Origin: Owenia fusiformis
Taxonomy: Eukaryota > Annelida > Polychaeta > Sabellida > Oweniidae
Reading direction: 5' to 3'
Length of the DNA: 64,000 bases
Assembly: GCA_903813345.2 (NCBI GenBank)
Contig: CAIIXF020000002.1
Location: forward strand, 162,001 to 226,000
The notes under the pieces are model-generated. The model saw nothing but the letters and a program-made list of their open reading frames with translations, searched no databases and had not been told where the DNA came from. Of the stretch, positions 7,035-57,000 are shown piece after piece (position 1 is the stretch's first letter; each line of letters starts with the position of its first letter). Both the position numbers and the translations under genes were made by a program.

Positions 7035-10000
7035 CTGCAAAAATGACAAAATGCGTTGTTACATATTTTACAGAATATTGTAATGTATAGAAGACTTGCA
7101 TACAAATTCATAGCTACAAAGTCCATAAAAATGAAGTGTCTATTTAGCAGTGTCCCTCCCTGGTCAAACCTTTTTCCCTTTTTATTTTATTTTACAATTT
7201 TAGAATGAAAAAACTGGCCATATGGTCCTTTTTTAAAAACAAAAATATGATAAACAGACAATAAACCTTTATAGACTAAATAACATGAATTATAATTTAC
7301 TAAAAGTTATATTATAAATCTTTAAGTTTAGTTATTTTCTTGAAGAAAGATCATGGAAAACCCTACTTAAGACACATATCAAATTACAAGAGAATGTATA
7401 TCATAGCCTTATAGGGGACCTTCATGTTGCATTTATTGACAGAAATTTAATGTACCAGGGAAGCCTGAGGCAAGATGGATCATTAAGGGTCAACACGTGC
7501 AGTGCCATCTTTTGTGGCTCCAAGATAATATATTTCTTCAATATTCTGGGGCGTTTCATAAAAATATTGTAAATTACATGTAAAATTTTTGGGGGCCTGT
7601 TTCTTAAATCTGTTGTGAATTAGGATTTAAGAATGTCAAACATAGGATGTTATCTAATGGGAGGCAAAAGCCATGGAAAACTTTCTTTGTGATCCATTTT
7701 ACCAGAGGCTTCTGAAGTGCAGAACGCAATGTGCTGAAGTAGGTTTTCCCAAAGTTTGCATGCTTTTGTATTCTGTGGTGATAGGACAGCACATATGCTT
7801 CCTGTATTACTATGACTTAACTAACATGGCACCAGAGAGGTTTGAAGGGATTGCTTATTTAAAAGGAGGTTTCCAATTCCAAACCCTGGTGGTTATCATA
7901 GAAAAGTAGCATCATTTATTGTTCATGAATTCTTATTCAGGAAAGTCAACTTTTTTAACATATTGCCAGTATGTTACATCAATGCTCTAGACAATGACAA
8001 GTGAGATTCAGTTATCATATCTGCAACTCCTTTAAGTAATCTATGCATCACAACACCAAAAATAAATTGAATTATTCACCACAATAATCTTACAATACAA
8101 TAAAGCATGCAAACTTCTCATCTAATTGCCTTTGCCTTATAACTAAACTACTAAGTAAACAAACATTAATTGCCTTAGCCTAGAAGGGTCCTGAGGTGTT
8201 ACTGATTGCGTCATTTGAAAGTGCAATTTGTTGTCGATAGTCTTTTATCTCAGAGCCTGACTTTATTCTTGTGAAGTTAGCGGAAATTGCTAACATGAAG
8301 GTCACCTATAGAAACAGAGAATAACCTGATGATTTTTGAAGGATATCATTTTTATCCAATTCATCAAAACTTTGGTGGATTTGTGAAAAATTGCAAAATT
8401 GGCAAAGTTTATAGCCCTTGAAAGAACAAAAATTTCTGGAATAATTCTTTCTTTTTCAAAACTGGAATTCTATTCTAATGTTTTGAATGTGGTGAAGACC
8501 ATACAGATTGGTATGGTGGCCTAATATCCCATATGGAATTCACTGTTTTTGCTTTTAATAATATGATGCAGGGCAAAGGGTTTCAGACAAAATGAAAGGA
8601 TAGATATTGATATGGTGAACTGAATTCAACAATGTTTTTCTCTTAAATCATACCTATCCTTTTGGTTGATTTAACAAAAAGTATGCAAAAGCTTAAAACA
8701 AAACCCCCCAAAATAGATAAAAATTAAGATAAACCTTTTATTTCATAACAAGATACATTTTTAAGATCAACCAAACTTTCTTTTGTACAATTACAATATT
8801 GAGAGACGTTGTGTTTATGTCGTTTTGTTCCAATGAGGTTCAGATAGATGTTTCATTTCAATCCGAACATATGATACTAAGAACAGAAGAAGTGTCGGAT
8901 GTGTTTTCTAAAACAATATAGAGAAAAGTATATACATATCTTTCAAATTATATTTTCATAATATAAACATCCATTAATAAAGATCTAACAGCGTGCATAT
9001 TGGTGAATTCATTTCCAAAGCAATCCCCAACCAGCCTTAAACATCATGCAGTTACATAAGGAAACCTAAGTATATTGTACTGTACACTACAATGTACAAC
9101 AAATGCGACAGAATTAACAAAAAATACAGTGCTTGCTTGTAAAACTTTGAAGTGAAAATAAGTTATTTGCATGAAACAAGGTTGCAAGCAGATAGATAAA
9201 CAACAATAGCTTCAACCATCAAAAGACATTAAAATAACTGATACATGATGTTAGAAAATACTTTGATATTGAATGAAATGTGAAAGAGGTTGCATTAAAA
9301 TTACTAACAACAGGCAAATAATTGGGAATGAATCGTTTTAACATAGAGACAGCTGCAGTCTTGAGACAAGCAATTTTCGTAAAAATACAAAAATTGCATG
9401 TTACAAGTCACTAATGAGGCATCTTGTTCAATGCAGGAATTGCTGTCTCTCAGTTGTCATCCATTTAATTATATGATTTTTTGCTCTCAAAATAATTATC
9501 ACAGAATATTTATAGAAATAACATTTAACCAAGAATTTAATGTGTGTTTTTTGAAAGTAAACTGCAGAACATTTCACTTTGCTATTTAACTATAAAACAT
9601 TTGGGTTCTTTCTTAATTTGGTGCCCAACCCATTCTAAATATATCCCCCATGTAATACCTTGTAATAGGTGAGTTGAAAAGGAATTGAAAGTTAAAACAT
9701 GTAATGAGTTTCTGATAGAAGTATAATGGCAAACTCAATGACCTGATATTATACCAAGGAAGTTTATAAAAGAGGAGTTTTTCTTACCATTCCCAAAACA
9801 ATTAGCAGGGACCCAGCAAATGCAATACTGAACATTACTCCAGCGGTGTCTACCTGTAAAACATTACAATACAATTAGCAGGGACCCAGCGAATGCAATA
9901 CTGAACATTACTCCAGCGGTGTCTACCTGTAAAACATTACAATACAATTAGCAGGGACCAGCAAATGCAATACTGAACATTACTCCAGCGGTGTCTACCT

Positions 10001-13000
10001 GTAAAACATGATAATACCATATTAGTGGTTCTTTTAACTGATGACCATATTATGCCCAAATAAAGGCATTTCTCTTCATTGGTATCTAAAGAACTAGAGC
10101 TCTCAAATAACACTGATGTCCTAAAGGGATATTTGAGAAACAGACAGACATCTGGCATATAACTTGAACCATAAAAATGTACACCAAGATATTGATGTAC
10201 ATTTGGCTATTGTTCCACTATGAGCACCTTTAGTGGGCGTAATCCATTAACATATTAATCAATATATTAGTTTTTTGTTTAATCTGACCTGATTCCATTA
10301 AGACAAATAAATCTCAGTTCATCTATTTCAATAATTATTCAGGGTAATAAAAATATTATTATAAGATTATTCATTAAATAATTCAAACTTACGTGCTGAC
10401 AAAATTTTCCTACATTAGTTGCTCCACAAGTGTAATTGTAAGTGAGATTAGGGATGCCTTCGTAGTATATACCTGCAAAGAATATCATTAAATAAAACAA
10501 ATTAAGAAAAATTACAAAATTCTGTGTTAGCTTGCACATACATTCTTTTGTTTTATCTTCCGAAAAGATATAAGAAATTATTTTAAGGATAGGCAAATAG
10601 CAATCACTTTTCAATCTAAGGTTGATTGGCAAAAAGCAATCACTTTTCAATCTAAGGTTGATTGGCAAATACCAATCACTTTTCAATCTTGATTGGCAAG
10701 TAGCAATCACTTTTCAATCTTGGACTTGGAAAAGGCAATAGCCTCATGGGTGGTGGACTGGATGCCAATATGGTGAACTGTCAACGTTAGTCATGGGGCC
10801 TGTCATTTGTGATTCTACTATTTCCATTAGATTTCTTTTGTAAAACTCACCAAATCTTGACATATTCACGCATCCTCTCCAAGGACTTTCAAAGAACCAG
10901 TCTCCTTGGCCTTGAAACTCATTGACACAAATGCTATTCACCATAATGTAGATGATGATGGGCATGGCCATCACTGATGTCACACCCATCCAGATGAGGT
11001 TCAGGATATATGTTATCAGCATGAACTGAAAAAACAAAGAAAGCACAACTTAATATTCTAGTATCACCCATCCAGATGAGGTTCAGGATATATGTTATCA
11101 GCATTAACTGAAAAAACAAAGAAATCACAGCTTAATATTCTAGTATCACCCATCCAGATGAGGTTCAGGATATATGTTGTCAGCATGAACTGAAAAAACA
11201 AAGAAATCACAACTTATAGTATTATTTGTTATTCAAATTGCATGAATGCACTGAATTTTACCATAAATGCACTGAATTTCACCATAAATGCACTGAATTT
11301 CATAAATGCATAGCTGTTTTGAACTTTTGGTGGCTGCTTAATTTGGTGGACTTGCAATATAACATTGTACTAATTATTCTTATTTATATATTACTAAAAT
11401 TACCCGAGAATTTGGTGGCTTCTTAATTTGACGGATTTTAACAAGTACAGGTATAGTATTCAAAATGAGAACTTACATTTAGGTCTTCAGTAGGACATAT
11501 AAACTGAGTAATTAACCAAATGCAATTGGCCATTTGAAAGAAAATGGAAAAAGTCCAGCCTGCTTAAATCTTCAAGACACCGTGCAAAGACGTTGTATTA
11601 TACATGTATTATTTAATCATCTGAATATTATTTGTGATCGCTTCAAAAATAACTTTGAGACATTTCTTGAGAAATTGAATTTATATATACAGAATTTTTC
11701 AAGCAGTGTTATTGATCATTAGCCAAAGTGGTTTAAAATTACAAAAAAGCCATAATAAGGCCAGTACTGACCCCCATAAAATGGATATGAGCTACATTCA
11801 GACAGATGGACTGACAAAAGATCACTTACTACACCAGCTGAAACTCTTCCTCCCATAATGCACTTGGCTCCTTGATACACATTCTCTCTTGTAGCACCTG
11901 TTGCTAGGCAACCAAACACAAAAAGAAAGATTGCGAAGCATCCCATGACAACGGCGACTATAATGAAGATCACCTGTATGGTTTTTAACCTGGAAATAAA
12001 GAAAATTGCTCAATGTTATTATCATATTATGATCTCTTTGGCATTTAAGACAGGTGCTGCCCCCTTTTTAAAACTTCTAATTTAAAAATGTTGTCCAAGA
12101 AATCTGTTTGCATGGCCATCATTTTTGTGAGAAAACTGAACTTCAATGTCATGGCAGTCATGGTTCTAAATGAAAAATACAATTACAATGAGGTAAATGA
12201 GAAGTTCATGAGAAATCAACTCTAAGTGTAAATCAGCTACATGATGTATTTTAATCTATTTGTTTAAAATGACTCATAAACAAACATTATATTAAAGTTA
12301 TGACAGCCCAAATCAGAAATTGATAGTTTCTGCAAAGTTCTGCAAAATTCAAGTTGTCAAAAGTCAAAACACCAAAGTATGCTAAGAACTGCATTAGTAA
12401 GGATAAACTTCAAGTTTATGTTTAATTACATTTTTGCATAAATACTACGTGTGTGATAACTGAATTCAACATGAAACATATGTGGGAGTCTATGATATCA
12501 CTTGTATAATATTCATTAATTGTAACTCAATCAAGAATCAATCAACATTAAAGATAACAGAACACTCAGACACTCTTCAAATCATTAATCATTGCAACAG
12601 GTAAACCATTACTTATAAGAGTACTTAGTTCAGGTGAAATAGAATTCAATAATATAAAGTTAGTAATATACAATACATATACATATTATGCCTTCGCCTA
12701 TTCCACTTAGTGCTTGCAACGGTAATGGATCTCACTGCCGGTAAATTTCACCTCCATTACCTTACCGTTACCGATAATCGTTGATACTGATAATGTTCCT
12801 AAAATCCCGGGGAAAAACCTGAAAGTGAAACTAAAATATTTGGAAAAATCCTTAACGAAGCCGATTTCTCAGCTTAATTTCCCGCTCACATCAACAACAG
12901 TGGATATATTGTATCATCATGTATCTCGTGTGTGATTGTGTATTGTTAGGAAGTCTTTAAATGATAATATAGAGTGAATTCGATCAAAATTGATCAAACT

Positions 13001-15097: not shown

Positions 15098-15960
15098 TTT
15101 CAAAAATAGTATCCCTATGTACACAAGTTATTTCGATCTTTATTTTTAGTCTACATATTGTCCCGATTCATGGCGTAAAATTGCATATAATATGGAAATG
15201 TAAAAGTTTGTTATCTTTGAATTTCAAATATGGCCGACATGAGGCCCCTTAGATTAAACATCAGGAATAAATGGTTGAAAAAGACCTCTTTATATCGCAT
15301 TACAGAACTCCAGTAATATTGATTAAATTTTATGAGATATATCTATCACATTTTGTTGACATAAATCTTAAATGTTCTGACACGAGAGATTATTTTAAAT
15401 AAATAAACGTTTTTATTTTGTTCTTATAAGAGGTCTTAAGAACAGTTCTATTATCCATTTATAGATGGCGATAATCAGGATAAGTAATTGTACACTGTTG
15501 GCAAAAATCAACGCCAGGGGCAGATTTTCATTTATCAATTATTGAACGATACACGTTCTAAGTTTTTCAAATAAGCCGAATAACATAATGTATGATTACA
15601 CGAGGAAATTCGAAAGTACTGCCTTTTATCGGCAGATTGTATTAATTAAAATCATATTAAATAGACACCATCGGTCAAAACGTTCAGACGTTAGTCATGC
15701 TTAAAATACCCTGTACCCCCCCCCCTTTATCCTTCTGTATATTGCCAGGTAAAGAGAGTGAAGGTGACGGGGGGGGGGGTGGATACAGTATTTGAGCAAG
15801 ACTATCAAAACGTTTGAACAATGAATCGTGATATCTTATAGTGATGTATTGGAAAAACCTAGAATCAAAATTATAAATTGATTGCATGAGCTGATTGGAA
15901 AATAAAGCTTATAATTAGGTGTTCAATTAAGCCAAGGGGTCTCCTGAGAGGTGAAGCAAC
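15098..15960. other. M6 5' flank / spacer to SDR gene
   Basis: Should contain M6 5' untranslated sequence and promoter, and the 3' end of the SDR gene (minus-strand AATAAA near 15412). Poly-C and poly-G runs occur at about 15717-15725 and 15769-15778. No further gene seen. Confidence 0.35.
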
Positions 15961-17196
15961 TCATAGTTCATCTTTGATATCGTGAAAACCCAAGTCAAGA
16001 TTGTAGAGTTCTTGAATACCCTTATAAAACAATGACCTATTCTCGTATATTATTTCCCTGGCTAAGATATTAATTATTTCAGTTCTTTGTTGACCATAAC
16101 CCGGCTCGATCATAACGTCTTCGTAAAATTTAACAGTTTGACTAAAAACTGTTTCCCAGGGTGTCGGGTTCCAATTCAAATGTAACTCAGCTTTTGTGAC
16201 ATTTATTGGTCCCTTTTTGACCGAAGGGAAAAGATAAATTGCATTGTTTGATTCATCCAATGTGTAATTGAACTTTGAGTCAATCGTTCTTTCTCTGATG
16301 CCATCAAATAATTGATTCAAAGTTAATGTTTCAGGGTGAGCGAGATTAAAAGCTTCATTTTTAATAGTTTCAAATCTGCTTTCATCCAAGGCAATGATAT
16401 TTAAGATAACCTTTGCAACGTCCTCCACATAGACTAGACTCATAGGGTAATTGTTGAGATATCGGGGCAGTGATATTGTTTTATCAACATAGTCATTCAT
16501 GCGAATCCACAGTTGATATATCCACCAGCGATACGTACTGTCACGTGGTCCAACTACATCCGGGAGCCGTAGAGCAACGTACGGGAAGCCACCCTGTTGT
16601 ACACTCTCACTCAAAACCTCTTCGCCTTGTAATTTTCTATTTCCATAACTATCTTTTGAACTCATTTCTTCCCGAATGTCTTCATCAGTTGGTCTAACAG
16701 CGTCAGTCTCAACTGATGGACCATCATGATTCTTAATACAAACTTCGTATACAGAATCTGAACTGATGTAAACGTACATTCCAACATTTTTGGCCGTGAG
16801 TGTAGATATAGCCTGTTGAACTTCGTACGGTCCGTAAGCGCTAAAATCAACAACAGCATGTAACTTCAACCCTTCTAGTTTATCAAGTAGCTCCTTGCAC
16901 CCTCTTAATGGCTTCTTTCTGTCACAAATGATGCTGTGGACGTGAGGCTTTATTCTGTACCTAGAATCCCAATACCAATTTCCCCGATTCACTATGGTAA
17001 CCGAGTATCCATCTTGTATTAACCCTTGTACTGTCGATGCCCCCATAAATCCATTTCCTCCAAAAACAAGCACATTCTTCCCCGAACCATCAACTTTCTT
17101 TTCGCCACTGAGGTATCCTGCTTTACAAGTCTCAATCAAGGCGAGGGCAGCTCCAAGGAAAACAATATTCCACGTACATGTATGTCGACCTATCAT
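15961..17196 (-). CDS. Secreted/ER-lumen NAD(P)-dependent epimerase/dehydratase-like protein (extended SDR), intronless
   Basis: A 411-aa protein read from the ATG at 17196 (AAG in front gives an A at -3). The open frame extends 15 codons further up only through a non-ATG TTG. Residues 1-30 (MIGRHTCTWNIVFLGAALAL and on) look like a signal peptide or anchor. The Rossmann motif GGNGFMG is at about 46-52, VVDFSAYG at 115-122, YISSDSVY at 143-150 (catalytic Ser region), YGNRK at 184-188 (the YxxxK pair) and LRLPDVVGPRD at 209-219. These are the marks of extended SDRs of the NAD-dependent epimerase/dehydratase family. Three sequons (NYT, NVT, NRS) in the C-terminal half suit a luminal protein. The substrate is unknown. 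It is a single exon in a region where every other gene is heavily split, suggesting a retrocopy or an acquired gene. No intron remnants seen. Confidence 0.88.
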   Translation of the reverse strand: MIGRHTCTWNIVFLGAALALIETCKAGYLSGEKKVDGSGKNVLVFGGNGFMGASTVQGLIQDGYSVTIVNRGNWYWDSRYRIKPHVHSIICDRKKPLRGCKELLDKLEGLKLHAVVDFSAYGPYEVQQAISTLTAKNVGMYVYISSDSVYEVCIKNHDGPSVETDAVRPTDEDIREEMSSKDSYGNRKLQGEEVLSESVQQGGFPYVALRLPDVVGPRDSTYRWWIYQLWIRMNDYVDKTISLPRYLNNYPMSLVYVEDVAKVILNIIALDESRFETIKNEAFNLAHPETLTLNQLFDGIRERTIDSKFNYTLDESNNAIYLFPSVKKGPINVTKAELHLNWNPTPWETVFSQTVKFYEDVMIEPGYGQQRTEIINILAREIIYENRSLFYKGIQELYNLDLGFHDIKDEL

Positions 17197-17539
17197 CTTT
17201 TTTGTTCCAATCGATCTTAAAACTATTGTAGATAAGTCCAATCATGGGTTTAGCTTTCCAAATGTTTATAATAAACAACTAAAGCTCAGTTCGTTTCTCT
17301 GCCTTGCTTAGAATTTCCGATCTATTCCCATATCAGCAATGCGGTCTAAACTCTGGGCAAAACGTTCTAGCTGGTAACACCTAGTGCCTAGTGGTAAAGT
17401 TCAGATAAACATATCTTCCCAAATGATAAGAGAGCGCCTATCAACAGGGAGGTAAATGTAAGGCCGGGTTAACATGAACTTAACTGAGGTCATAAAACAA
17501 ACTGCCTTGTTAGGATTATTATCCAACTGAACGTACAGT

Positions 17540-17625
17540 AGTTCCCGAGGGATATAGACTAGAGAAACCCTCCGTCCGTCCGTCCGTCCGTCCGTCTGTC
17601 CGTTCGTTCGATCGTCCGTTTAACC
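17540..17625. repeat. CCGT microsatellite with GGGATATAGA leader
   Basis: TTCCCGAGGGATATAGA is followed shortly by about ten CCGT/CCGTTCGT units. Same arrangement as the longer element at about 28370-29392, so probably a truncated relative. Confidence 0.65.
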
Positions 17626-20006: not shown

Positions 20007-20207
20007 CACCCCTCCATAAGTTTAGCAACTGGCCGTTTTCATTAGAAACCATATCAGAGCCTGTCAATTTTTGTCAATTTAAATACAATAGTTCGGAGCT
20101 TATGAGGAATTTGATGATTTTTTTAATCGCAGAACATTTACAGGGCATCAATGATAAGTAATTTGAATAGAGACTTCCGGCTAATAATAGATGGGGGGGG
20201 GGGGGTG
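20007..20207. mobile_element. CACTCCC-family MITE, 201 bp
   Basis: Left end CACCCCTCCATAAGTTTAGC, right end a run of G then GTG followed by TA. Length, ends and an internal GATGATTTTTTT block match the copy at 38124-38334. The right end is strongly degraded by the G run. Confidence 0.5.
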
Positions 20208-21469: not shown

Positions 21470-21550
21470 ATGGCTAAAAGCACTATATATTTCGGATTGG
21501 TTCTTGTCATAGTCTTTTCTCAGGAATCACACGCACAAAAAGCAGCCACG
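21470..21550 (+). CDS. PVF exon 1 (signal peptide)
   Basis: 27 codons, MAKSTIYFGLVLVIVFSQES then HAQKAAT, ending at donor GTAGGT. Hydrophobic core typical of a secretory signal, with likely cleavage near SHA-Q. Confidence 0.75.
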
Positions 21551-27099: not shown

Positions 27100-27779
27100 T
27101 TTACGATAATTCTATCTTAAATGCATGCGGATTTGTACGCTTGTGTGGAAACCAAGTGTGAAATGAAGAACAAATAATGTAAAAGATGTCGCAGCTGAAT
27201 ATGTGAAACCCTATTAAACTATCTGTTAAACTAAAGGACAAATACTGTAGCTATGATATTGGTTAACTCTTCGGGGGATGAATAAATTGATTATTTGTTT
27301 TTGAAAACCTGGTGCAAAACCTAATATTTGATTGAATTTAAAGGTGTTTGCAATAAATACATCCCCGTATGTATGCGTTCGTTGATTCATAAAGATGGCA
27401 GTCGTTCGTTGATTTTTGATATATTCTGTTGTATTGAATAAGATGTAAATTGCTGTTCAATTTTAGATTTTTGAGCGTGTTATATTTATGTTATAAAATG
27501 AGTTAAACGCTTGTTTCTAATCTTACAGAAAACAGAATTGAAAAATCGGATTGATTGATTCAACACGCTACTAATTGGGAAGCGGATTTTGGTGAAACAA
27601 AATCAGTTTGGTTCTTTCAGGAGAGAAAACCTATTTTCAACATCAGGCTGTTTCAAAAAAGTGACAACACTTTTATGTAATGTAACCAACGTATGCAATT
27701 CTCTGGAGAGTCCTCAAACAAATTGCTGTCCAAAAGTTTCTCCATGCAAATGAATAAAACAATGATTGTATTCAACCAC
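27100..27779 (+). other. PVF 3' UTR and downstream flank
   Basis: AATAAA motifs at about 27282 and 27353 give plausible 3' ends. Nothing else recognised before the hairpin MITE. Confidence 0.45.
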
Positions 27780-29977: not shown

Positions 29978-30028
29978 CAGAGAGTTTTGAATTTTATATG
30001 TTCTTGTTCAAGGTAAACGTTCTCTGAT

Positions 30029-33000
30029 TAGTATAGTAGGAACAAGGGGTTCCCATGCACCCATAAGGTGTGAATAAGTTACATACATTTTTGTAATCCC
30101 TAGGGTGTCTATTTAATGAATTCATTTGTTAACATTGCCAACTAATGTCCCATAGTACTTTTATGGTGCCATTCAGTTACCATGGTTACGCATCTTTAGA
30201 CATCTTACCTTGTTATCTTAAATCATTTGTAGCTCTGTCATTATTTGGTCTATAGAAATGATATTGGTACCAAATTGAACCTCATTAAATTTCCAATAAA
30301 TTTCTGATATTCAATTATGCAAATTATCTAATTTGCATAAATTATGACGTCATCAATCTATTTTTGGTTCAGAATTTTCAACTATAGCAACGAATCTATT
30401 AGAACTGAGGCCGTATGGCAAAATTTCTGAAAGGTTTTGTCCTTTATTCTATTAGTAGAAGGTATGAGCAACATAAAAATGAAAACAGATTCAAAATTGA
30501 ATCAGTATTACGAAAGTTATGTAACTTTCGAGGCAGCTATCGTGAATGTCATTATTTGACAATAATATACATTACGTCTTACCTTGGAGTCTTGAATCAA
30601 TGTAGCTTCGCCATTATTTGGTCTATAGAGATGATATTGGTATCTGATTAAACCTTATTAAATTTACTATATGGTTACAATATTCAGTTATGCAAATTAG
30701 CTAATTTGCATTAATTGTGACGTCATCAATCCATTTTTGGTTCAGAATATCCTAGTGTAGCAACATATCTATTAGAACTGAGGCCTTATGACAGAATGTG
30801 TACATAGTTTTGTCCCTTATTTGATGAGTGGAAGATATAAGCAACATTAAAGAGACAACAAATCTTCAAAATTGGATCAGAATTAACAAAATTATCCAGC
30901 TTTGGAGGCAGCTACTGTGAACGTCATTGTTTGACAATTATAAAAAGAATATTAAATTAACAAAAAAAGTAGCAACCATAGTTGTTTCAATCTTATTGAG
31001 TAAAAATGTGCATGTATTGAACTGAACTAATAAGTATGTGGAAAGGTTACATGTATTTTGACTATCATTCACAGGGGTCAAAACGGTTATCTCGACCCTG
31101 TATATTAAAGATCCAATTTTATAATTTTCCATGCACTTTCAATGATTCATATAAATAGTATACATATAGTCTGATTTTCATCATATTCTTCATATTCTTG
31201 ATTCTTAAAGCATCTGAAGTATAAAACATGATTAGAAGTGAAGATGATTCATCATATGGTTTATGTAATATTTCTAACATTTCAGATGCTATGGTAACAT
31301 CACTTGATAATGAGGTTTTTACATTTCAGGTTCTTAATGAGTTAAAAGAAAGTTATTCTCCCTTTGCTTTAGAGAAAAATGGTCACATGAATTTGTTTAA
31401 AAAAATTATAACTTGATTTAACCCCCTCCTGACAGCCCCCATATTTGAAGATTTTGGTGAAACCTGGCAAAATACATTAATTATTAGGTTCCAGAAGCCC
31501 CTAGAAGCTATATGATGGCCCCCAGTGGCCCAAAGAATCTATACAGGGGCCCCAAGTGGCCCCCAGAAGGTATACGATGGCCCTCAGAAGCTATACAAGG
31601 GCCCCCAGAAACTATACTGTGGTCTCCAGAAGCTATATGGTGGCCCCCAGTGGCCATCAGAAGCTATATGATGGCCCCCAGAAGCTAATTAGTGGCCCCC
31701 AGGAGCTATATGGTGGCACCCAGAAGCTATACAGGGAACCCCAGTGGCCCCAAGAAGCTATACGATGGCCCCCAGAAGCTATACAGCAGCCCCCAGAAGC
31801 TACACGATGGCCCACTGTAGGCCCCTGTATAGCTTCTGGGGGCCACTATATAGCTTTCGGGGCCACTGGGGGCCACCGTATAGCTTCTAGGGGCTACTGG
31901 GGGGGCCCTTTTTGCTTCTGGGAGCCATTGGGAGCCACCATATAGATTCTGGGGGCCATTTTGTAGCTTCTGGGAACCACCATATAGCTCCTGAGGGTCA
32001 CTATTTAGCTTCTGGGGGCCATCATATAGCCTATGAGGGCCACTGGGGGCCACCGTATAGCTTCTAGGGGCTACTGGGGGCCCTTCACATCTTCTGGGAG
32101 CCATTGGGAGCCATCATATAGATTCTGGGGGCCATCATGTAGCTTTTTGGGGCTCCTGTATAGCTTCTGGAGACCATCGTTTAGCTTCTTGGGGCCACTG
32201 GGGTCCCCTGTATAGCTTCTGGGAGCCACCGTATAGCTCCTGGGGGCCACTAATTAGCTTCTGGAGGCCATCATATAGCTTCCGAGGGCCACTGGGGGCC
32301 ACCATATAGCTTCTGGAGACCATAGAATAGTTTCTGGGGGCCCTTGTATAGCTTCTGGGGGCCATAGTATAGCTTCTGGGGGCCACTGTATAGCTTTTTG
32401 GGGCCACTGGGGGCCCCTGTATAGCTTCTGGGTGCCATCGTATAGCTCCTGGGCGCCACAGGGTTTCCTGTATAGCTTCTGGGAGCCACCGTATAGCTCC
32501 TGAGGGCCACTATTCAGCTTCTGGGGGCCAACATATAGCTTCTGGGGAGCACAGTATAGCTTCTGGGGGCCACTTGGGGCCCCTGTATAGATTCTTTGGG
32601 CCACTGGGGGCCATCATATAGCTTCTAGGGGCTTCTGGAACCTAATAATTAATGTATTTTGCCAGGTTTCACCAAAATCTTCAAATATGGGGGCTGTCAG
32701 GGGGGGGGGTTAAATTAATTAAGTTATAATTTTTCCAAACAAATTCATGCGACTATTTATCTCTAAAGCAAAGGGAGAATAACTTCCTTTTAACTCATTA
32801 AGAACTTGAAATGTGAAAACCTCATTATCAAGTGATGTTACCATAGCATCTGAAATGTTAAAAATATAACATAAACCATATGATGAATCATCTTCACTTC
32901 TAATCATGCTATATACTTCAGATGCTTTAAGAATCAAGAATATGAAGAATATGATGAAAATCAGACTATATGTATACTATTTATATGAATCATTGAAAGT

Positions 33001-35972: not shown

Positions 35973-36024
35973 ATGAAGACAAACTTGGGCCTGTGTATAA
36001 CACTAATATCACTACTGGAATCAG
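35973..36024 (+). CDS. CA10: CA10-like exon 1 (start, signal peptide)
   Basis: MKTNLGLCITLISLLES plus one base, donor GTAAGA. First ATG of a good signal peptide; joins exon 2 in phase 1 to give VYGTTWSEWW. Confidence 0.82.
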
Positions 36025-39000
36025 GTAAGAGTTTATTGTTTAGGATTAATAATAATATTAAACAAACTTGGGCCTGTATATAACACTAATATCACTACTG
36101 GAATCAGGTAAGAGTTTATTGTTTAGGATTAATAAGAATATAAGACAAACTTGGGCCTGTATATAACACTAATATCACTACTGGAATCAGGTAAAAGTTT
36201 ATTGTTTAGGATTAATTAATAATAATATTAGACAAACTTGGGCCTGTGTGTAACACTAATATCAATACTGGAATCAGGTAAAAGTTTGTTTAGGATTAAT
36301 AATAATATTAAACAAACTTGGGCCTGTATATAAAACTATTATCACTACTGGAATCAGGTAAACACACTTGGTCCTGTATATAATACTAGTTTCACAACTG
36401 GAATCAGGAGTTTATTGTTTAGGATTAATTAGGTTTTAATCCTGGCTTGCAGATTTTGAATTCAGCACGTACGAAAACCCTGTTCTCAGTATAATTTGGG
36501 CTGTAGCGCTAGCGTAGGGTATTTTACAGGCCCGTAGCCAGAGTGGTGGGATGTTCGGTGGGTTCGAAGGATTCATTAGAAAACATTAACAAAAAATGGT
36601 TTGAAATGCTTAGAATGCACCATATACAATTTAAATTTTAAACATTTCGGGTTGCAGTGATGCAAATCCCAAAAATTGCACCTCCCCTTGACATTTACGT
36701 GCTACGCCCCTGTACATGTGTGTTAACCTTTGGACTCATGCAATGTAGAGTATGTAAAATTAAAAATATTAATATATCGGGAATAAATAGGTGAATAAGA
36801 CGGCCTGTTGTTAAAGAAAACACAAAATGAAATCCTACGCCAAGCAGGGGCGGATCTGGGAACCAACAAGGGGGGGGGGGGGCAAACTTGTGGTCTGAGA
36901 AAAAAACGTCCGCGCTTGCGCTGAAAAAAATTTTGGGCCCCAAAAACCCAAAAGTGGGCCCAAATTTTGAAATTTTGAGGCCCATTTTTTTCAAAATTTG
37001 GCCTGAAATTAAAAAACAAGGCATAAGAAGGCCAATTTAAGACCTAAAAGGCCTACTTTTTGGGGCCTTAAAGCCTTTTTTGGCTCAAATTTGTTTTTGG
37101 GCACAATTTTTTTTTCTGGGCCCACCAAAGATCCGCCAGTGCCAAGGGCTGATGTAAAACAGTCAGTCCACCCCAATTGGGATCGAATCCACGATCCCTC
37201 GCTTACAATGCGATTGCTCTGCCACTGAAATGATGAAGTTGTTTGAGACTTTTTAGGAGGCCATGTAAGCAAAGCTAGATCTGGACATTTCCTTTTTTCT
37301 GGAAATATCAGGGAATTTCATTTTGAAAAAGGGGTACGAACCCTGTTTTCATCATTCTGGGCACTTTTAAAGTGATTCTGGTTATATTTAGGCCAAAGTT
37401 GTCAAAAGTGAACTCCCTGGAATTTTTCAAAAAGTGAACCCCCTTGGCAAATCCTTGCTACGGGCCGTCGTAAGGTGCCGTGTTGAAGGGTAATGTGTTA
37501 GTGCATGCTGTTTCATGCATAATCATTATTAGAAAAGCAAGCTTGACGTTTTAAACATCTGCAAAAGCCGTAATTGCATTACCATTTCGCTCTGATCTTT
37601 TCATTAGCTCAATTTAATCTAAATTCTATTACAGTCATCCTCGTGTCCAATGTAGTGAAAAAACTCATACATTACACAGATATCAACTCAGCTCATCTGC
37701 ACAATATCAAATAAAATAATTATCTCCATAGAACATTGTCAAACTTTTTTTCTGACTCTACAGTAAAAGGACACATAGTAATCATTGATATTTGATGATT
37801 CCTTCCGAACATCCGAAACGAATAGTTTATTTTCTTATTTTTCGGCATTGCTCAGAATGAGTACTAAACCAATAACTTAATTCCCCATTCCTTGCTCATT
37901 TTACGACATTTACTCTTGTCGTGTTCTGAACATGACCGATGTGACTTTTTCTTCCCAGGCAATATTTTCTAACTCAGCTTATCTCGAATGTGCAGCAAGT
38001 GGAAATTAATTTAGGAGCATTTAATAACAATAGCAAATTTGTTCTGGGTAGTCTCATTGAGCTAATCTGTTCCTCCTTAGACCTATAGATTCTGTTTTAT
38101 TAAGTTATAGGGGAATCTTGCTACACTCCATTCCATAGGTTTAGCAACTGGAGTTTTTTTACATGAAAGACTCAATGTTTGAATCGTATTTTGTTCCTTA
38201 ATAACAGGAGTTTGAAAATTTGTAACAAACCTGATGATTTTTTTGAATTGCCAAAACAGATAGGATACATGATTCCATACGTGATCCTAGAGAGATCTCT
38301 GGTTGCCAAACTTATAACGGGGGGGGGGAGATTGTATAACATGCGCCTTATAATACATGTTAGCTTTTGTGTACTGTATGATGAGGTGACTTGGGCATGT
38401 GATGTTTTTAGTGAAGAAGACGACCTGTTTTTTAATTAGACCAAAAATATTTTTAAATCAAATAGACACATCAGAATTTTACACATGAACAGCTATAAAG
38501 ACACTAGACTTGGTGCCAAGCAAGGAAAAATCATCGCCAAATACATACGTATATCTATAGGCCTACACAGCATATTACATGAATAAATCAACAGCGATTA
38601 ACCAGCACGAGTCTTCTTTTTTAGTTAACAAGTCAATACAAGAAAGATTGATGGAATCTGATATCACAAATTGGATTTACATCTAAGTGAATAGAGAGAC
38701 ACAATTATCATATCATATTCCATCTATTCATATAATATCAATTATCATATCATATAATATCAATTATCATATCATATGATTAACAATCATTTCTAGACAA
38801 CTATTTTCTATTCTATTGTCAATTTTCCTATCAACGCTTAAGGCAGAATAGAAAAGGATCTGATAAATTGGCTCCTCAAAGTTGCTAGTTTGTTAATTCT
38901 GTATCGACAGTATTTGAACTAATGAAATTTGTTTTTTCTTCCAGTGTACGGTACAACCTGGTCGGAATGGTGGAAGTACGCGGATGGGATTTCAGGTGAG

Positions 39001-42000: not shown

Positions 42001-45000
42001 TTACTCGTAATGTTTTAAAAATCCTTATAAAAACAAAATATACAGGGTGACCAGAAAAAAAGTCGACCTTTGTTTTTTCATTCAACTTCCACATAAATGC
42101 CACGATCTGTTCCATTTGTGGCACAGATGTACATCAGTCAATGCATAACATTTTGCCAGAGTTGTTATGTATAATCTGCCAGGTATCCATGATCGCACGG
42201 TATTCGTGATACAGGTGAACATGCAGTCAGACAAGTGGTGCTTTACGACATCATGTCGGAAAATGTCATCAATGTCGTAATTATGACTATGGTCTATAAA
42301 AACTCCAATTTTATTCAACTAAGATCTCAAAATAACTATACTATATGTTTATACCATACTATGCTTTACTCTATACTAAACGATACTATATTCCACGAGT
42401 AAGCCGAAACACAAACTATCGCGTGAATCGAAATTAGGTACATCTAAATGTTGATCTTATCTTTAGCTAAACGTCAGAAAAACATGAAATTGATTTTGTT
42501 CAGAAGATTTGGAATAATGTCATATTTGAAATGCTTAAGTCAGTGGATACGGATTATTGGAATACGTACCTGAATATACTGACAATCGCATTTTCCTTCT
42601 TAAACTGCATTATTTTCTCGTCGAAGTAAATCAATACAATCCAGATTTTACTCTTTTCCGGCGTTCGATTTTGCTCTGATTCTTTAAATTCGAGTTTTAA
42701 TTTTCGAGTTACCCATCAATTAACTATATATATGATTAATCATATTTCAATAGTGAATAGTCAGAAAATCACGACGCTTATTTTCTCAAAAAGTTTAGAT
42801 CCAACTGACATCATACTCCTCTTAAATACCACGGGAACTACTTTAGACATCTTTTCAGTCATACGCAGAGGATAGTGTGGAAACCGTTTGTAAAAGGGTA
42901 ATCAATACCCGGATATAAATCATGCTCTCTGTGCTAAGTTATCTAATTAAGAGGATATGATGTTTGGGAGATAATGACAGACGTTCCTGTACTCCCTCAT
43001 ATACCAAATACAGCATCGATAAATCACTGAACATAAAAACCAAGAGCATCCTTGGTACAAAAAACTCGTCCACAATATTTCAGTATATCACTTGACATGA
43101 GTTCCTTAAGAATTAAATAGTATGACGTTAAATAATGAAGATCTCAACACGTGCACAATAGGGTTACAACGATATCCTAATTTCCAATCTATAAGTGTGG
43201 TAGATTGTCTATTATTTGTAGGGATATCTTTTACGAGAATGTCACTTCTGACTCTTTGTTTACTTGTCGTGTATTATGGATGCGTTTGGGAAGTGATTTA
43301 AGATCCAGAAGTCGATCATTGCCTTCAAATGTTAAGGTTGATATCTCAATAGTGTGAACTATTGGTTCCCTAGGATGTATAGTCCATACAGTATCTCGTG
43401 TTTGTGTTAATGCATATCCACAGGCTATTTACATATTGGACTTTGATTTTGGTCATTTTGGTTCATTTCCCAGTTTCCATCGATTTTAAAGTTGAGCCTT
43501 CGTCAATATAATCGACAATTAGTCAAAACATTAAACTCCTCATGAATCTTTTACTAGATAGTTTTATTACACAACAACTTTCTCACTTCTAGAACACAGC
43601 TTACAATTTTACCATTTTAAACTTCAAAAATTGTATATTTAGCTAAAATTAAAAAAAGTGATCCTTATTATCTGCTTCTTCGTCCTTTCCTTTAGTTAGT
43701 ATTTCTTGTATCTAGGCTAACCACCCCTTTTTGTAGCCCCACTCAGAGAGCCTATAAGCTATGCATGTCCACATTCCGAGTACATTGGGGTCATTTTGAG
43801 TACATCCTAGTCCTTCCCTTTTGTACCCCTACTGTAAGAGCCTGCCAACAGTATATGTCCGCATCCGGGTACTTTTGGGTCATATTTAGTACTCCTGGGT
43901 CCGTAAACTGTAAGAGCCTGCCAGCTGTATATGTCCGCATCCGGGTACTTTTGGGTCATATTGAGTACTCCTGGGTCCGTAAACTGTAAGAGCCTGCCAG
44001 CTGTATATGTCCGCATCCGGGTACTTTTGGGTCATATTTAGTACTCCTGGGTCTGTAAACTGTAAGAGCCTGCCAGCTGTATATGTCCGCATCCGGGTAC
44101 TTTTGGGTCATATTTAGTACTCCTGGGTCCGTAAACTGTAAGAGCCTTTCAGGTGTATATGTCCGCATCCGGGTACTTTTGGGTCATATTTAGTACTCCT
44201 GGGTCCGTAAACTGTAAGAGCCTGCCAGCTGTATATGTCGGCATCCGGGTACTTCTGGGTCATATTGAGTACACCTGGGTCCGTAAACTGTAAGAGCCTG
44301 CCAGCTGTATATGTCGGCATCCGGGTACTTTTGGGTCATATTGAGTACTCCTGGGTCCGTAAACTGTAAGAGCCTGCCAGCTGTATATGTCCGCATCCGG
44401 GTACTTCTGGGTCATATTGAGTACACCTGGGTCCATAAACTGTAAGAGCCTGCCAGCTGTATATGTCCGCATCCGGATACTTCTGGGTCATATTGAGTAC
44501 TCCTGGGTCCGTAAACTGTAAGAGCCTGCCAGCTGTTTATATCCGCATGCGGGTACTTTTGAGTCACATTGAGAACTCCCTGGTCCGTAAACTGTAAGAG
44601 CCTGCCAGTTGTATATGTCCGCATCCGGGTACTTTTGGGTCATATTAAGTACATCCGAGAGTCTTTCCCTTTTGTATCCCATCCCTGTTTGAGTTTGCTC
44701 CCCACTGCTTTCGTATTGATATCAATGAGTATTCAGTTGTGGAGTCCACGTGTCTCGAACCTATTTTTACTTTCAATTTGTCTTATTTTAGGACCGGAAT
44801 TCTGGGGACTTTTAAATCTTGAATGGACGATATGCACCAAAGGAAAGAGACAATCTCCAGTAAATATCGAACCCAAAAGGCTTGTTTATGACCCTTATAT
44901 GAAAAACATACACATTGACCAAGCTCACGTAAGTACTCTTGTAACAATACTTGTGGGTTAAGATTAACTAAAAGTGATATATTTGATCTGTCAAAAGCGT

Positions 45001-48000: not shown

Positions 48001-51000
48001 CGATTGGGATTGGAAATACTATGCAGATTGCCAAAATACAATAAAGCGAGTAATAAAAAATCTGATTGATTTGATAACTAATAAGAACAAGCTGGGTTGT
48101 CCCCTGAGGATGGCAATTCAGACACTGTAGATAATACCAATGATAAATCAGTTCACCATCATTATTATGTAAATCTAATCTGCCTGGTGCTATTCCAATT
48201 GTCACTTCACACGAGGATCATCTCATATATTTTATAAAATACGACATCGTCTTGCTTTACTGGACGACATTATAGCCATGCATCAATTGTAACTTCACAC
48301 AAGCAACACGCATTATATTTATAAAAGCTTGAGTATGACAAGGCGATCGTCACTTCACACGAGTGTCATGCAGTATATCTTCGAAATTGCTTTACTGGAC
48401 AAGGTATTACGTTCAGTCATTGTATTATCACCCTACATATGTTTTTTGCCATATATCTTGAAACGTTTGACAAGGTATCGTTTTACCAACTTGTCCGAGG
48501 CATTACTGTCAGGCGTTGACATTAACATATCAAGATTCAACAAACTCTTCTCAGTACAGCGATGCTATACAGGGTGTTCCATATGTTTCAGGAATGATGC
48601 TGTGTTTTATTGGTTTTCTTTTCAATCTAACTGAATTTTTGACACAATGTGTCTACACATGTTTTGCTCCACCTACTCTACCCCTAGGTTACTATAGCAA
48701 CCCTATTATTCAGTCTACTGAGCTTCATGATATGAAACTTTTCCAACTTATTCACAACATATTTGGACACATTTTGTTAAAATATCAGCTAGATCGAAAA
48801 GAAAACCAATAAAATACAGCATCATTCCTGAAACATATGGAACACCCTGTATTTCGAAAACATCCGACAATTAAGAGATGTATCTAGAACTTTAATATTT
48901 AAAAATGTACAAGAACATCCTGAGTTTACCTTTCTGTTAAATAACAATATTTTTCGTTTCCTTGTAAGAGCAACTTCAACATTTATTAAAAACGCACAAA
49001 ACTATTTACAAATCAATACAGACTTGAATCAAGAGCCTCCAGCAAATTAGGATTCAAGATTATATTACTAAATTCAAATCTAAATTTATGTAATCATTGT
49101 CTAATGAGCCAACAGTTAATTTTGACCTATTCATCAAAGAAATATTTCCAGATGAAATAGTTCAAGAGGTGTCAATTGTCATTATACTCCGGAACAAAGG
49201 CGAGACGACTCTTGAGTCTTCCGGCACTCTTAGTAATGCTCCAAAGCATGCCATATATAGTCAGTCTCGAGAGCTTGTGCCTGAGGAGTGATCACACAAG
49301 ACATGCAAATGGATGTCTGTCCTATATCCAGCAAAACGTATAACTAGAATATGCGAACTGCTGCTCGAATAGCGGCTCATATACATAAACTCGCAAAAAC
49401 TTCACAATTCTAGAATCTGTAAATAGAAGTTGAATATTTAGCAAAATACCCCTTTGAGGCGTTTTATATCATATTGTTCATTAACAAGACATTGAAAATG
49501 AAATTGATAAATACAGTTTTCCCAATTTGGGAGTGTTCCATCATGTTAAGTCGCTTGGGGAAGAGCATTGTTAGAAGAATAGAACATTCAGTTTGATAGG
49601 AGATGGTGGCTTATTTAAATACTAGAGTGATAGAGATAGGAGGGAGATGGGGAGGGAAAGAGGGAAAGGGAGGGGAGAGGGAGATTAAAAGGGGTAAGAA
49701 GATAGACTGAGAACGAGAAGGGTGAAGGTAAAGAGAGTAAGAGGGGAGAGGGAATGAGAGCATAAGGGGTGGATAGGGTAACCGGGTCAAAGAGGGGAGA
49801 GAGATTTAGTAGCGAGAGTTATGGGAAAGGAGAAGAGAGGAAAAAGAGAGAGGGAGAGATAGAAAGCACGAAGAATCATATCCCATATCATACTGTTTAT
49901 TGACTGATGATAGAATTGACAAATAATTCTATTTTTCACTATGGGAACGTTATATCATTTGCGTTCGCCAAGGGAAAGCATTACATTTTCAATATTCAAA
50001 GCAGGTATGAGAGTCCGTAATTACGAAGAACAATCTAATCGAGTTCGGTTCTGCTGATATAACTGAGGCTTACAGAGTATTAAACAAAATTGCAAAAAAA
50101 TCCATCAACGGCTTAGCCACATTTCATTAGCTGATAATTTCAACTTTGAAATGTAATGAGTGTACAGTGGTTTATCACTCAAAGATTGGAATTCTCGGTT
50201 CAATGGACGGACTGTGTCAAGAAGCAATTACTGGATCAATAGATGCACTGTTTGCATGTAAAGCACATCCTCCTGTGTCTATATGGATAGCTAACGTTTC
50301 TGTGACTAAATATGACTCGATATTGTTTAATAATGTCTAGTTATACTCAAAAATATTCTTTTAATCATGTGGATTTGTTGACAGTGCATTACATTACAAT
50401 CGTTCATTGTAACTACCATTCTCAAATTCTTCACATAGTATAGATTACAATATAGACTATACATGTACTTTTGGAGAGGAGTGTAGATTTGTTGACAGTG
50501 CATTACATTACAATCATTCATTGTAACTACCATTCTCATATTCTTCACATAGCATAGATTATAATATAGACTATACATTTACTTTTGGAGAGGAGTATAG
50601 ATTTGTTGACAGTGCATTACATTACAATATCTCATTGTAACTACCATTCTCATATTCTTCACAATAGGATTACAATATAGACTATACATGTACTTTTGGA
50701 GAGGAGTGTAGATTTGTTGACAATGCATTACATTACAATATCTCATTGTAACTACCATTCTCATATTCTTCACATAGTATAGATTACAATATAGACTATA
50801 CATGTCCTTTTGGAGAGGAGTGTAGATTTGTTGACAATGCTTTACATTACAATCATTCATTGTAACTACCATTCTCATGCAGTCCTTCACATGGTATATG
50901 TTACAATAGAAACTACACTTCCCACTCCTATGTGGAAAATCGACCGATCCTTTGTTGCTGAGACCCTCTCATTATCTCCTCCATAAAGCAATCAAACCCT

Positions 51001-54000
51001 CATAAACGCCTCGTGAAAGAATAATAACAATGATTTGATGTAATTGAAATGAAGATTTCCTGACGGCGTGCTACTCATCATAACCATCGCTTGATCAATG
51101 ATGATGGAGAGCTTCCCTTGGAGACATTTCGGAAGATCGAATACCCTTAAAAGCACAGGCCGGGATGATCCATACATTAAAGTGCGGATGCCATTTGGAG
51201 CAGTTATGGTTAAAAACCTACATTAGGCAGCTTATTTTTTCTATTGTCTACTATTTCATCCTCCAATCATTCTAATATATAGACCATCTTTGCCCTTTTG
51301 CTTCTAGAAAGGCACTTCTTTGAAAAAGGTACTTCTTCTAAAGGCACTTTTTCTAAAAGGGCACTTCTTCTAAAAGGGCACTTCTTCTAAAAAGGCACTT
51401 CTTCTAAAAAGGTACTGCTTCAGGCTCCTTGTCTCATCTGTCACGTTGTCCTCCAATTGCAACTGCAGGTTGCTATGAATCACCCATGTGGCAGAAATTG
51501 GGCAATTTGAAGTGTTGTGTTTTTGAAAGAAACAATTTGCTGAAGACATACGCATATGTATATGTGAATCGAGATTTTGAAGCCGTATGAGAAGATAATA
51601 ACCAAGTTTGTTTGAGAACATAACGATTCCTAACTTCAGACATTGACTCCAACTTTCAGGTAGAGGTTTGATAACAGAAAGTTTGCTGCTTGAACAACTA
51701 TGAAGTGAAACTTTGAAAAAGATCTTATGTGTATGTTGTCCGCAATTTCAAACCCCTTTCTCTTTGTTAACATTGATAGCTATTTAAATAAACTAGATTT
51801 TATACTTATCAAAATCGGTATATGTTCACAAACCTTGTCATTGTCAATGATCGAACGCTGCGCAGAGTTAACTGACGATTAAGGGGTACTATCACCCTGC
51901 CCCTGATGTGCGAATATCACTTTAAGGTGATCTATCGCTTATTTCACACTTGGGATAAAACGAGCGAATTAACTATAATTTGGTATCGATTGGGGGACGT
52001 GTATTGCAACCAACTAAACATATAACGAAAACTTATGAGATCACCTCCTCGCCGTAACCCTTTCTCAAATGAACGGCGTGTGGTTAATAGGGTTCTAAAT
52101 AATGCACCAAGTTTTATTAAACTCGGGTTAGTGGTAATGGTCGAATAATATTGATGGACTCTGGATAGCCCATTATCGTATAGATTTTCCAATCACTTTC
52201 ATAAATCGGATAACTCTCAGATCAGAGTCATTTGAATGTTTTCGGAATGCGCTATAAACAACGTGTGTAAAATATGGTATTCGTCTTGATTGGTTTATAT
52301 AATAATTTAATAATAACAAAGTCAAATAATAAAGTTATTTTTAATACATGCTTAGTTTTTTTTATTATTGATGATTTTATTTCACTTGTTGAAAACAATA
52401 TAAACAATTACATATAAAAGCATACCAATCGCCATGTGGCATCACAGGTTGCTTTGATTAAATTAAACATAGTTTTCATCTGGCTTTCGATATCACAAAC
52501 AGGAAGTGAATAAAATATTGTAAAAATATTGGAAGTATGATCAGGTGCATTAAGAGTCAAATGTAGATAATAGGACCAACATATCCAGGGACCTGAACAC
52601 AGTGGGAAGTATTAGTGATGTGACAAATCTGCATCGTTTAAGGCCATAAATCCCGCCCCAAGGTTCACATCAAAATATGATCATTAATTGGACAAAATTT
52701 AAACATGAGTCTAACTTTGTTTAACATCACTTTTACAAATTCCGTTTTGATGAACTACAAGTGTCAATCGTGATACATCATAAGATATATAAGATCTCTT
52801 GGAATGTTGGTCCTCTAGACCTCTAGCTCATCTCGCATAAATAATACCCCGGAAGAACGACTCTGTTTACATCATCTGTGTTTGGAAACCGATGTGATCA
52901 TTTCCCTACAGTGATTTCTGCGCCAATGTTTGATAAAAAGCTAGTCGTTTTCTTCATTCAACATTTATTATGGAAAATAAGAAATAAAAGAAATTAAATC
53001 AATATAAAGTATCTCATCGAGATCAATCAAGAAATCGAAACTTTAAACCTTAGAATGTTACTAAATGTTGAAATAAATTATTAGATATTTCAAGATGCAA
53101 TAACTTTCTGCTATAACTTCGTTTATATGACACCAAGGTAACGCTTATAAAGTAACGTTATGTGAGCTATTGAATCACCTCTTGTCTGTTCTTCTGTCCG
53201 TTATCTTTGATGAAACATTTTATATCAATTGAAATTGTATCAATTTTTATGCCGAAAATATATTCTAGCACTTTGAGCCAAGTACTACAGGAACTATTCA
53301 CATGTTAAACTGTCTATATAGAATCTTCAATTGTACAATAAGTGGCATCTAAAAAGTTTGCTTGTAATCGATAATGCCAAAAGCACATTTAGCATGTGAG
53401 CCCAGTACCCACGGTACTATTCATTTTATAAAATCCGTTTCCAGGTGGGAGGCTGGCTTCTAAACAATGGACACGACATAAAGTTCAAGATAGACGACCC
53501 TGCAAAGCCCAACTCTATCAATATAACAAAGGGCCCCCTCTCTTACATGTACAGGGTGATTGATATTACAATACACTTTGGCAGTAGTGATGACCTTGGG
53601 AGCGACCATACTATTGAGGGGAAGTCGTTCCCAGCAGAGGTAAGAGTCTTGATATAAACGTGTACAATTGTTGTAAAGTACACTTCCCTCCATAAGTCTG
53701 GAAGTCGTTCCCAGCAGAGGTAAGAGTCGAGATATAAAAGTATACAATTGTTGTAAAGTACACTTCCCTCCATAAGTCTGGAAGTCGTTCCCAGCAGAGG
53801 TAAGAGTCGAGATATAAAAGTATACAATTGTTGTAAAGTACACTTCCCTCCATAAGTCTGGAAGTCGTTCCCAGCAGAGGTAAGAGTCGAGATATAAAAG
53901 TATACAATTGTTGTAAAGTACACTTCCCTCCATAAGTCTGGAAGTCGTTCCCAGCAGCAGAGGTAAGAGTCGAGATATAAAAGTATACAATTGTTGTAAA

Positions 54001-57000
54001 GTACACTTCCCTCCATAAGTCTGGAAGTCGTTCCCAGCAGAGGTAAGAGTCGAGATATAAAGGTATACAATTGTTGTAAAGTACACTTCCCTCCATAAGT
54101 CTGGAAGTCGTTCCCAGCAGAGATAAGAGTCGAGATATAAAAGTATACAATTGTTGTAAAGTACACTTCCCTCCATAAGTCTGGAAGTCGTTCCCAGCAG
54201 ATGTAAGAGTCGAGATATAAAAGTATACAATTGTTGTAAAGTACACTTCCCTCCATAAGTCTGGAAGTCGTTCCCAGCAGATGTAAGAGTCGAGATATAA
54301 AAGTATACAATTGTTGTAAAGTACACTTCCCTCCATAAGTCTGGAAGTCGTTCCCAGCAGAGATAAGAGTCTAGATACAAAAGTATACAATTGTTGTAAA
54401 GTACACTTCCCTCCATAAGTCTGGAAGTCGTTCCCAGCAGAGATAAGAGTCTAGATACAAAAGTATACAATTGTTGTAAAGTACACTTCCCTCCATAAGT
54501 CTGGAAGTCGTTCCCAGCAGAGATAAGAGTCTAGATACAAAAGTATACAATTGTTGTAAAGTACACTTCCCTCCATAAGTCTGGAAGTCGTTCCCAGCAG
54601 AGGTAAGAGTCTAGATATAAAAGTATACAATTGTTGTAAAGTACACTTCCCTCCATAAGTCTGGAAGTCGTTCCCAGCAGAGGTAAGAGTCGAGATATAA
54701 AAGTATACAATTGTTGTAAAGTACACTTCCCTCCATAAGTCTGGAAACCGTAAGTTATCAAAATCTGTTTACGTTTGGCGATTAAAAATCTCTCGAAAAA
54801 AACCTGTCACCTTGTATTATTTATATGTGTTTATATTGTTAAAGGGATTTTCTATTCTTCAAACACTATAAGTGTAGGATCAAATTGACAAATATTACAC
54901 CATGTCAGCTACGATGTTAGTTAATTCTGCCCCTGTATTATAATTCATTTATGAACAGTTTGTTTATTGTGATTCTAGATCCAGCTCACAGCCTTCAACT
55001 CAGATATCTATGCAAATTTTACATCGGCGGAAGTTTCACCAAATGGTCTCACTGTGATAGGAATCCTAGTTCAGGTAAGACTAGCAATGCTTGTTCAGGT
55101 AAGACTAGCAATCCTAGTTCAGGCAATGCTACTTAAGGTAAGACTAGTAATCCTAGTTCAGATAATACCAGAAATCCTAGTTTAGGTAAGACTAGCGATG
55201 TTAGTTCAAATAAGACTAGCAATCCTAGCTAAAGTAAGACTATAAATCTTAGTTCAGATACGACTAGCAATGTTAGTTCAGGTAAGACTAGCAGTCCTAG
55301 TTCAGATAAGGCTAGCAATCCTAGTTCTGGAACTACTAGTGATCCTAGTTTAGGTAAGACCAGCTATTCCAATAGAATGCATCATAATGCGATATAATAC
55401 AATACAATACAATACAATACAATACAATTTAATATAATACAATACAATGCATTACTAAACAAGTATAATTTGTCAAATAGTTTCGTATTTATGTATTTCA
55501 GATAAATGAAGAATCAACAAATCGAGAGTTTGAAAAACTTGCGCAGGAATTCAAAAGAGTAAAATATAAAGGTAGGGCACTTTCAATGTATCATTAAAAC
55601 GATAGTCATCGCAGAATTTGACATTTTCGGTATATTTTTTCTTCCTTTTTCCTGAGTTGACCCTGTATATCCCGGAGAATAAACGGTATACTTATACTGA
55701 GTCACAGAGCCTAGTACATTAGGTACATAAAGCTATATTTTAAAGAAGCAAATTGAAGCAATGCTAAACAAGGGGACGGCATGAGATAGATCCCTTTGGT
55801 AGATGTAGCCCTCTATTAAGATGTATCAAGAGATAGTTTGGGAGTAAAAGTAGTTGAAGTTGTACAGTTACTTTTTATCATTTGTTTGAAAGAAGTTTTG
55901 TATATCTGCGTGTTATTTTCATATTTGATCAAACTCGCTCGATCAAATACTTTTTAAATCCTTTGAGATGGTAAGGACATATTCGCATGTTCAGTGAAGA
56001 AATTGCTTTCAACATTTTTACTCTGTATTTAACCAAAGTGTTCTTCAACCACTAAACACTCTATTACTATTCGCTATATTGCTAATTAAAGTAAACGTTT
56101 TGTGATGTAATATTTCACAATTGTTTTCTTAACACGGGACCACTTAACTAAAATGAGTCAAGAATGGTGTGAAAAACCGAACGCGAGTAATTACTCGATG
56201 CATCTTGTGAACCCTCCATTTGTTAATTATTCTGACACTGACATTTTGGGAATTAGTTAGACGCACAGTTTTATAATTTATCATGTTTGAAGTAAAATGG
56301 AACTAAGTTAATGTCAAATTTACTCCTATCTTATTTCCAAATACGAAAGAGTTACGGTATACTGTTTTAATCACAGCTATAAAAGAAAAAAGCTTGGCAT
56401 TGGCAATTACAGAATCCTCAATATTGTTATCAAATGTTAAATTATGATTTTAGACGACGCGATTCATAAAACTTAAATGGCATAAATCTCTCTATAAATC
56501 TCCCGGTGGCAAAACTAAAATTGGCGATAAGAAGTTCAAAATAGGATAACTCGTTTGGAGGCCCGTTTATGATTGATTTTTTGAGTTTACACATACAATT
56601 CGTTTTTCAAATCGTCAAACAAAACTTTCGTTTAGCAAATTTTTGGAAGGGTATTTTTGTTAAGAATTTGAAGTCAAAGCAAAACCTCTGAAACACATTT
56701 GAGCGTAGGCCAACATGTATATTAATTGAATTGTTAATTTTAGGTAACGAAGTGAGAGTTGAGGACTTATCCCTGCACGACTTGATGCCTGAGACATACT
56801 CCTTTATGACGTACGAGGGCTCATTAACCAAGCCTGGTTGCCACGAGACTGTTACCTGGGTGATCATGAATAGACCAATCTACATTTCCAGAGAACACGT
56901 GAGTACATTTCAGCCAATCAGAAGCACAAGTGGTTGCCATAGGACGAATACCCGGGTGATAATGAATAAATTAATTTACATTTTCTACTAAACAGTCAGA

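Follow-up and report, generated by a model that had tools for sequence, protein, structure and literature searches.

Minisatellites that copy an exon/intron boundary have been described in amphioxus as "mirages". The accessible parts of these accounts (PMC3087553, PMC3902484) present tandem duplications of boundaries in Adh3, the globins BflGb6 and BflGb9, troponin C and PGBD5. Both donor and acceptor sides are involved, the units range from tens of bases to about 160 bp, and AG or GT is kept in many copies. According to the same parts, which also report RT-PCR data and haplotypes differing in length, regular splicing is undisturbed by the boundary copies. Human genes in segmental duplications carry variable internal tandem repeats at exon-intron boundaries, and their transcripts have altered or new introns (accessible part of PMC2812944). 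Intron gain by tandem genomic duplication, as outlined in parts of PMC4974935 and PMC3443670, resembles the present case in that the duplicated segment carries splice signals, but there a new intron is made, whereas here an existing junction is copied. In earthworm metallothionein, the available part of the account describes minisatellites within introns, as well as duplications of exon 4 that do not appear in the transcript (PMC12783039). Among the matches listed in the open-licence literature, titles and abstract openings held no other description of junction arrays in annelids.

The window, a stretch of 64,000 nucleotides from Owenia fusiformis, corresponds to C2:162001-226000 of a 498-Mb genome, and its G+C content is 31-39% per 2 kb. 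It contains a CA10-like and an M6-like gene, identified by Pfam exon matches (carbonic anhydrase and Myelin_PLP, respectively) and by tblastn with approximate CA10 and GPM6A protein queries. Twelve exon pieces of the two genes were located, as against the roughly 22 coding exons that the first-pass annotation gave for the window, not all of the twelve with mapped edges, and about 14-15 edges were confirmed. The features at these edges are as follows.

9788..9853 (-), M6-like exon; first exon base 9853, donor after 9788 (DNA reading, with junction search for the acceptor)
9794..10017 (-), array of 3.1 copies of a 73-bp unit, spanning the acceptor of the M6-like exon 9788..9853 (Tandem Repeats Finder, TRF; reading, junction search)
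10851..11025 (-), M6-like exon; first exon base 11025 (Pfam Myelin_PLP match, DNA reading, tblastn)
10983..11216 (-), array of 2.9 copies of an 82-bp unit, spanning the acceptor of the M6-like exon 10851..11025 (TRF, reading, junction search)
35973..36024 (+), CA10-like exon 1; ATG at 35973, signal-peptide-like start (assigned to the gene by position and eye)
35979..36362 (+), with an overlapping 50-bp row to 36408, array of 4.6 copies of an 83-bp unit, spanning the exon-1 donor; first intron base 36025 (TRF, reading, junction search)
53620..54746 (+), array of 14.1 copies of an 80-bp unit, spanning the CA10-like exon-4 donor; first intron base 53640 (TRF, reading, junction search)
55058..55364 (+), array with several TRF rows, units of 24 bp and multiples, spanning the CA10-like exon-5 donor; first intron base 55075 (TRF, reading, junction search)
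56936..56996 (+), decayed copy of the 3' end of CA10-like exon 7; 41/61 bases match, donor not kept; first intron base of the functional donor 56899

Five arrays thus lie over coding-exon edges in the window, three at donors (CA10-like exons 1, 4 and 5) and two at acceptors of the M6-like gene. In the junction search, the acceptors at 9853 and 11025 each had three copies, counting the functional one, and both extra acceptors ended in AG in each case. Counted in the same way, the CA10-like donors had 5 copies at exon 1 (GT in 4/4 extra donors), 14 at exon 4 (9/13) and 13 at exon 5 (6/12). The first-pass annotation had reported tandem or nearby junction copies at six exons, giving 3, 3, about 6, 14 and about 12 copies for the arrays, and both the arrays and these approximate numbers were borne out. 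The sixth case, a single decayed copy at CA10-like exon 7, is also real, though without a donor. Its 54-base core had 36 matches, whereas shuffling the local intron 500 times gave no more than 31; the exon-7 row of the junction search held no copies.

The earlier rule equating the functional copy with the frame-keeping one did not hold at CA10-like exon 5. Translation remains open across several further 24-bp copies, so that use of the +24 or +63 donor would yield in-frame products. Because these extra donors are strong and in frame, they might be used. The unit lengths of the other four window arrays (73, 82, 83 and 80 bp) are not divisible by three. A further array, 43831-44652, was rejected as a junction array, since about 140 bases separate its end from the CA10-like exon that follows. 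Another, 50368-50915, had no adjoining coding match by tblastn with CA10 and GPM6A or by reading. Elsewhere in the window, an open frame of 426 codons at 15964-17241 (-) matches Pfam Epimerase (NAD-dependent epimerase/dehydratase, 4.3e-15) and has no introns in the part read. A weak PDGF-like piece is also present, and positions 31497-32632 form a dense, partly mirrored repeat field based on GGCCCCCAGAAGCTATA and its complement.

TRF coverage (period at least 10) was 12.3% in the window, versus 7.4% in gene regions from other parts of the genome (240,921 bases), and 40-mer local-duplication coverage was 10.0% versus 6.3%. At 12.3% coverage, the probability of at least five array hits on edges was 0.022 for 14 edges, 0.09 for 20, 0.31 for 30 and 0.64 for 44, the total of the earlier reader. 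The nominal excess obtained with few edges is biased, because all confirmed edges come from the two genes in which arrays had already been noticed. The detection bias that the first-pass annotation had warned of was a pertinent concern, and the frequency of junction arrays was assessed outside the window.

Genome-wide Pfam searches gave 596 exon pieces: 63 of carbonic anhydrase, 3 of Myelin_PLP (all in the window), 92 of myosin, 107 of SNF, 144 of kinesin, 88 of dynein AAA_6 and 99 of tyrosine phosphatase. A set of 67 merged regions, window included, covered 212 of them, five in the window. After leaving out these five and 18 duplicate-copy rows (17 kinesin, 1 dynein), 189 pieces were scored. 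They provided 218 junctions of 378 possible edges, junction calls being limited to edges with a good splice site and away from the domain ends. Outside the window, the sample consists of conserved exons of six gene families, in part hand-chosen. Its regions were not strictly random, comprising best-hit loci, ten hand-picked dense regions, 31 from a randomly ordered list and one added for its kinesin array, and the myosin, SNF and kinesin candidates were scored in part. Junctions were called by a simple script, with inspection by eye confined to touched junctions, and a junction was considered touched when it lay in, or no more than 10 bases from, a local duplication. The C6 kinesin array was anchored on an earlier identical copy and the C4 myosin donor was called one unit downstream, which left the counts unchanged.

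Nine of the 218 sampled junctions were touched, that is 4.1% (95% interval 1.9-7.7%). Circular shifts gave an expectation of 14.5 (sd 3.5), with a probability of 0.97 that the null equals or exceeds the observed count and of 0.07 that it equals or falls below it. From the non-coding positions of the sampled regions, 15.7 touched junctions were expected, a ratio of 0.57 (region bootstrap 0.24-0.95). The ratio varied from 0.36 to 0.77 over 13 settings that differed in mask type, tolerance, removal of the kinesin region or stricter junctions; the main setting without the kinesin region gave 8/216 versus 14.4 expected. The upper bound exceeded 1 in 5 of the 13 settings, reaching 1.36 at most. A strong excess at junctions is thus excluded, and a mild one is compatible with some of the definitions. 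Coverage by arrays showed no peak at junctions in the sampled regions, where intron-side coverage dropped on approaching the junction. In the sample outside the window, arrays covered 1.7% of coding pieces versus 9.0% elsewhere, computed on a piece set that differs by one dynein exon copy from that of the 218 junctions, and 4 of 189 coding midpoints were touched. The sampled junctions are not favoured by arrays over other intron positions. By side, the sample had 109 donors and as many acceptors, of which 2 and 7, respectively, were touched (P = 0.17); no asymmetry is claimed.

The nine touched junctions were spread over seven contigs and unrelated genes.

G000:C2:23266359-23269174 (L072), kinesin motor exon array; 18 nearly identical acceptor copies of a 159-bp unit (TRF 17.9), read by eye
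C1, myosin array; 61-bp unit, 4.5 copies, read by eye
C4, myosin donor array; 34-bp unit, 4 copies, read by eye
C5 from 36955052, phosphatase donor array; 17 extra copies at a spacing of about 22 bp, from the junction search
C3, carbonic anhydrase junction
C6 and C12, a kinesin junction on each
C12, two dynein acceptors

In the arrays inspected by eye, it was the outermost copy that continued into the exon body, and the remaining copies were intronic. The exon part of the unit was just about 4-8 bases in some sampled arrays (C3, C4 and one dynein, by eye). Exon duplication or mutually exclusive exons do not describe these arrays, as the units carry one side of an exon and the C2 kinesin copies, inspected by eye, reach a stop codon without a donor. 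Two loci of another kind were seen on C9. At G000:C9:37986009-37994334, about a dozen same-strand matches in a row to one segment of the myosin head (profile positions about 18-84) are perhaps a large set of alternative exons. At G000:C9:7082562-7087388 (L045), three same-strand dynein AAA_6 matches with a near-identical profile range (56-164) lie within 5 kb, and may represent exon duplicates or alternative exons.

Over 14 arrays, the junction search found GT or AG kept in 69 of 84 extra copies, in a search that was itself incomplete (3 extra copies of a dynein array versus 10.5 TRF units). All 35 extra acceptors kept AG, 17 of them from the single kinesin array, and 34 of 49 extra donors kept GT. 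In the 53620-54746, 55058-55364 and C5 phosphatase arrays, the same +1 G-to-A change removed GT in several of the extra donors. When columns were ranked by how many copies deviate, +1 came among the first 2 of 64, the first 5 of 24 and the first 4 of 22 in three donor arrays, and it was invariant in the other two. Selection against decoy donors is not claimed, with a Fisher test by hand giving P of about 0.04 for three arrays picked afterwards and about 0.2 for all five.

We consider it likely that minisatellites arise throughout the genome and that those straddling an exon edge persist roughly as intron repeats do, hidden by splicing. In a genome rich in repeats, slippage or unequal exchange would generate them at many sites. 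A duplication across an exon edge would leave its additional copies in the intron, and the same mRNA would be produced via the copy next to the exon body. Arrays at edges would then be kept about as intron repeats are, being nearly neutral, and arrays within coding sequence would be purged. The undisturbed splicing described for the boundary copies of amphioxus speaks for this reading. Under exon definition, only the exon-proximal copy has a partner splice site at exon distance. The copy used would accordingly be the one that faces the other splice site of the exon at the normal distance, and the rest would be unpaired decoys. This argument is weaker for units of 22-34 bp, because several copies fit within exon distance. 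The touch rate, lower at junctions than in introns, implies that the arrays may not be fully neutral.

The first-pass annotation had offered two readings, namely that junctions are prone to duplication in this genome or that splicing hides such duplications and makes them tolerable. The latter fits the data, being consistent with the coverage of coding pieces compared with other sequence and with the touch rate at junctions. The former is unsupported: array overlap with junctions, in this partial-genome sample, showed no excess over the expectation from either shifted or non-coding positions. A hotspot of tandem duplication at splice junctions, caused for instance by R-loops or by repair where exon edges are transcribed, could be read from the five edge arrays in a single window, with their P values at 14 and 20 edges. 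The ratio below 1 in all 13 settings outside the window, albeit with an upper bound above 1 in five of them, and the lack of a coverage peak at the junction speak against it, and we regard such a hotspot as very unlikely. The absence of an excess at junctions favours tolerance over a junction-specific mutation process.

The high retention of GT and AG and the in-frame donors after CA10-like exon 5 would also suit arrays that are functional, either by providing alternative isoforms from the extra splice sites or through splicing regulated by the repeats. The frame-breaking units of the other four window arrays and the loss of GT in 15 of the 49 extra donors argue against this, which makes it an unlikely explanation. 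It is similarly doubtful that the junction arrays, at about 4% of junctions, act as a standing source of new splice sites, with protein length variants already arising from short in-frame units like the one at CA10-like exon 5 and with selection removing decoy donors through the +1 G-to-A change in several copies of three arrays. That the arrays are artefacts of assembly is extremely improbable. Exact copy number is difficult to recover by assembly for an array like that of 18 x 159 bp, but the differences between copies fall in patterned blocks and the pattern is repeated in unrelated genes on seven contigs. One DNA search with 54740-55640 yielded no second haplotype; it matched the locus once, and otherwise gave four partial C6 matches confined to positions 631-730 of the query.

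The arrays described here are of the same kind as the amphioxus mirages. As in the parts of the amphioxus accounts cited above, a tandem unit lies over the exon/intron boundary (seen in five window arrays and at nine of the sampled junctions), both sides of the exon are affected (three donors and two acceptors in the window, two donors and seven acceptors in the sample), and many, though not all, copies keep AG or GT. The present arrays differ in belonging to an annelid and in that their frequency was measured against a positional background, whereas the amphioxus work, in those parts, treats single genes. The RT-PCR and haplotype data belong to amphioxus, whereas the arrays here are known from the DNA of one assembly. 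The human segmental-duplication genes, as presented in the accessible part of PMC2812944, likewise have exon-edge minisatellites that create extra splice sites, and differ in that altered transcripts are described for them.

Boundary-spanning minisatellites are present here in unrelated genes of an animal other than amphioxus, where the amphioxus accounts, in the parts available, proceed gene by gene. What is new is a sampled rate, about 4% of junctions, together with its positional background. Junction arrays of this type lend themselves naturally to tests of how the spliceosome chooses one site among near-identical ones.
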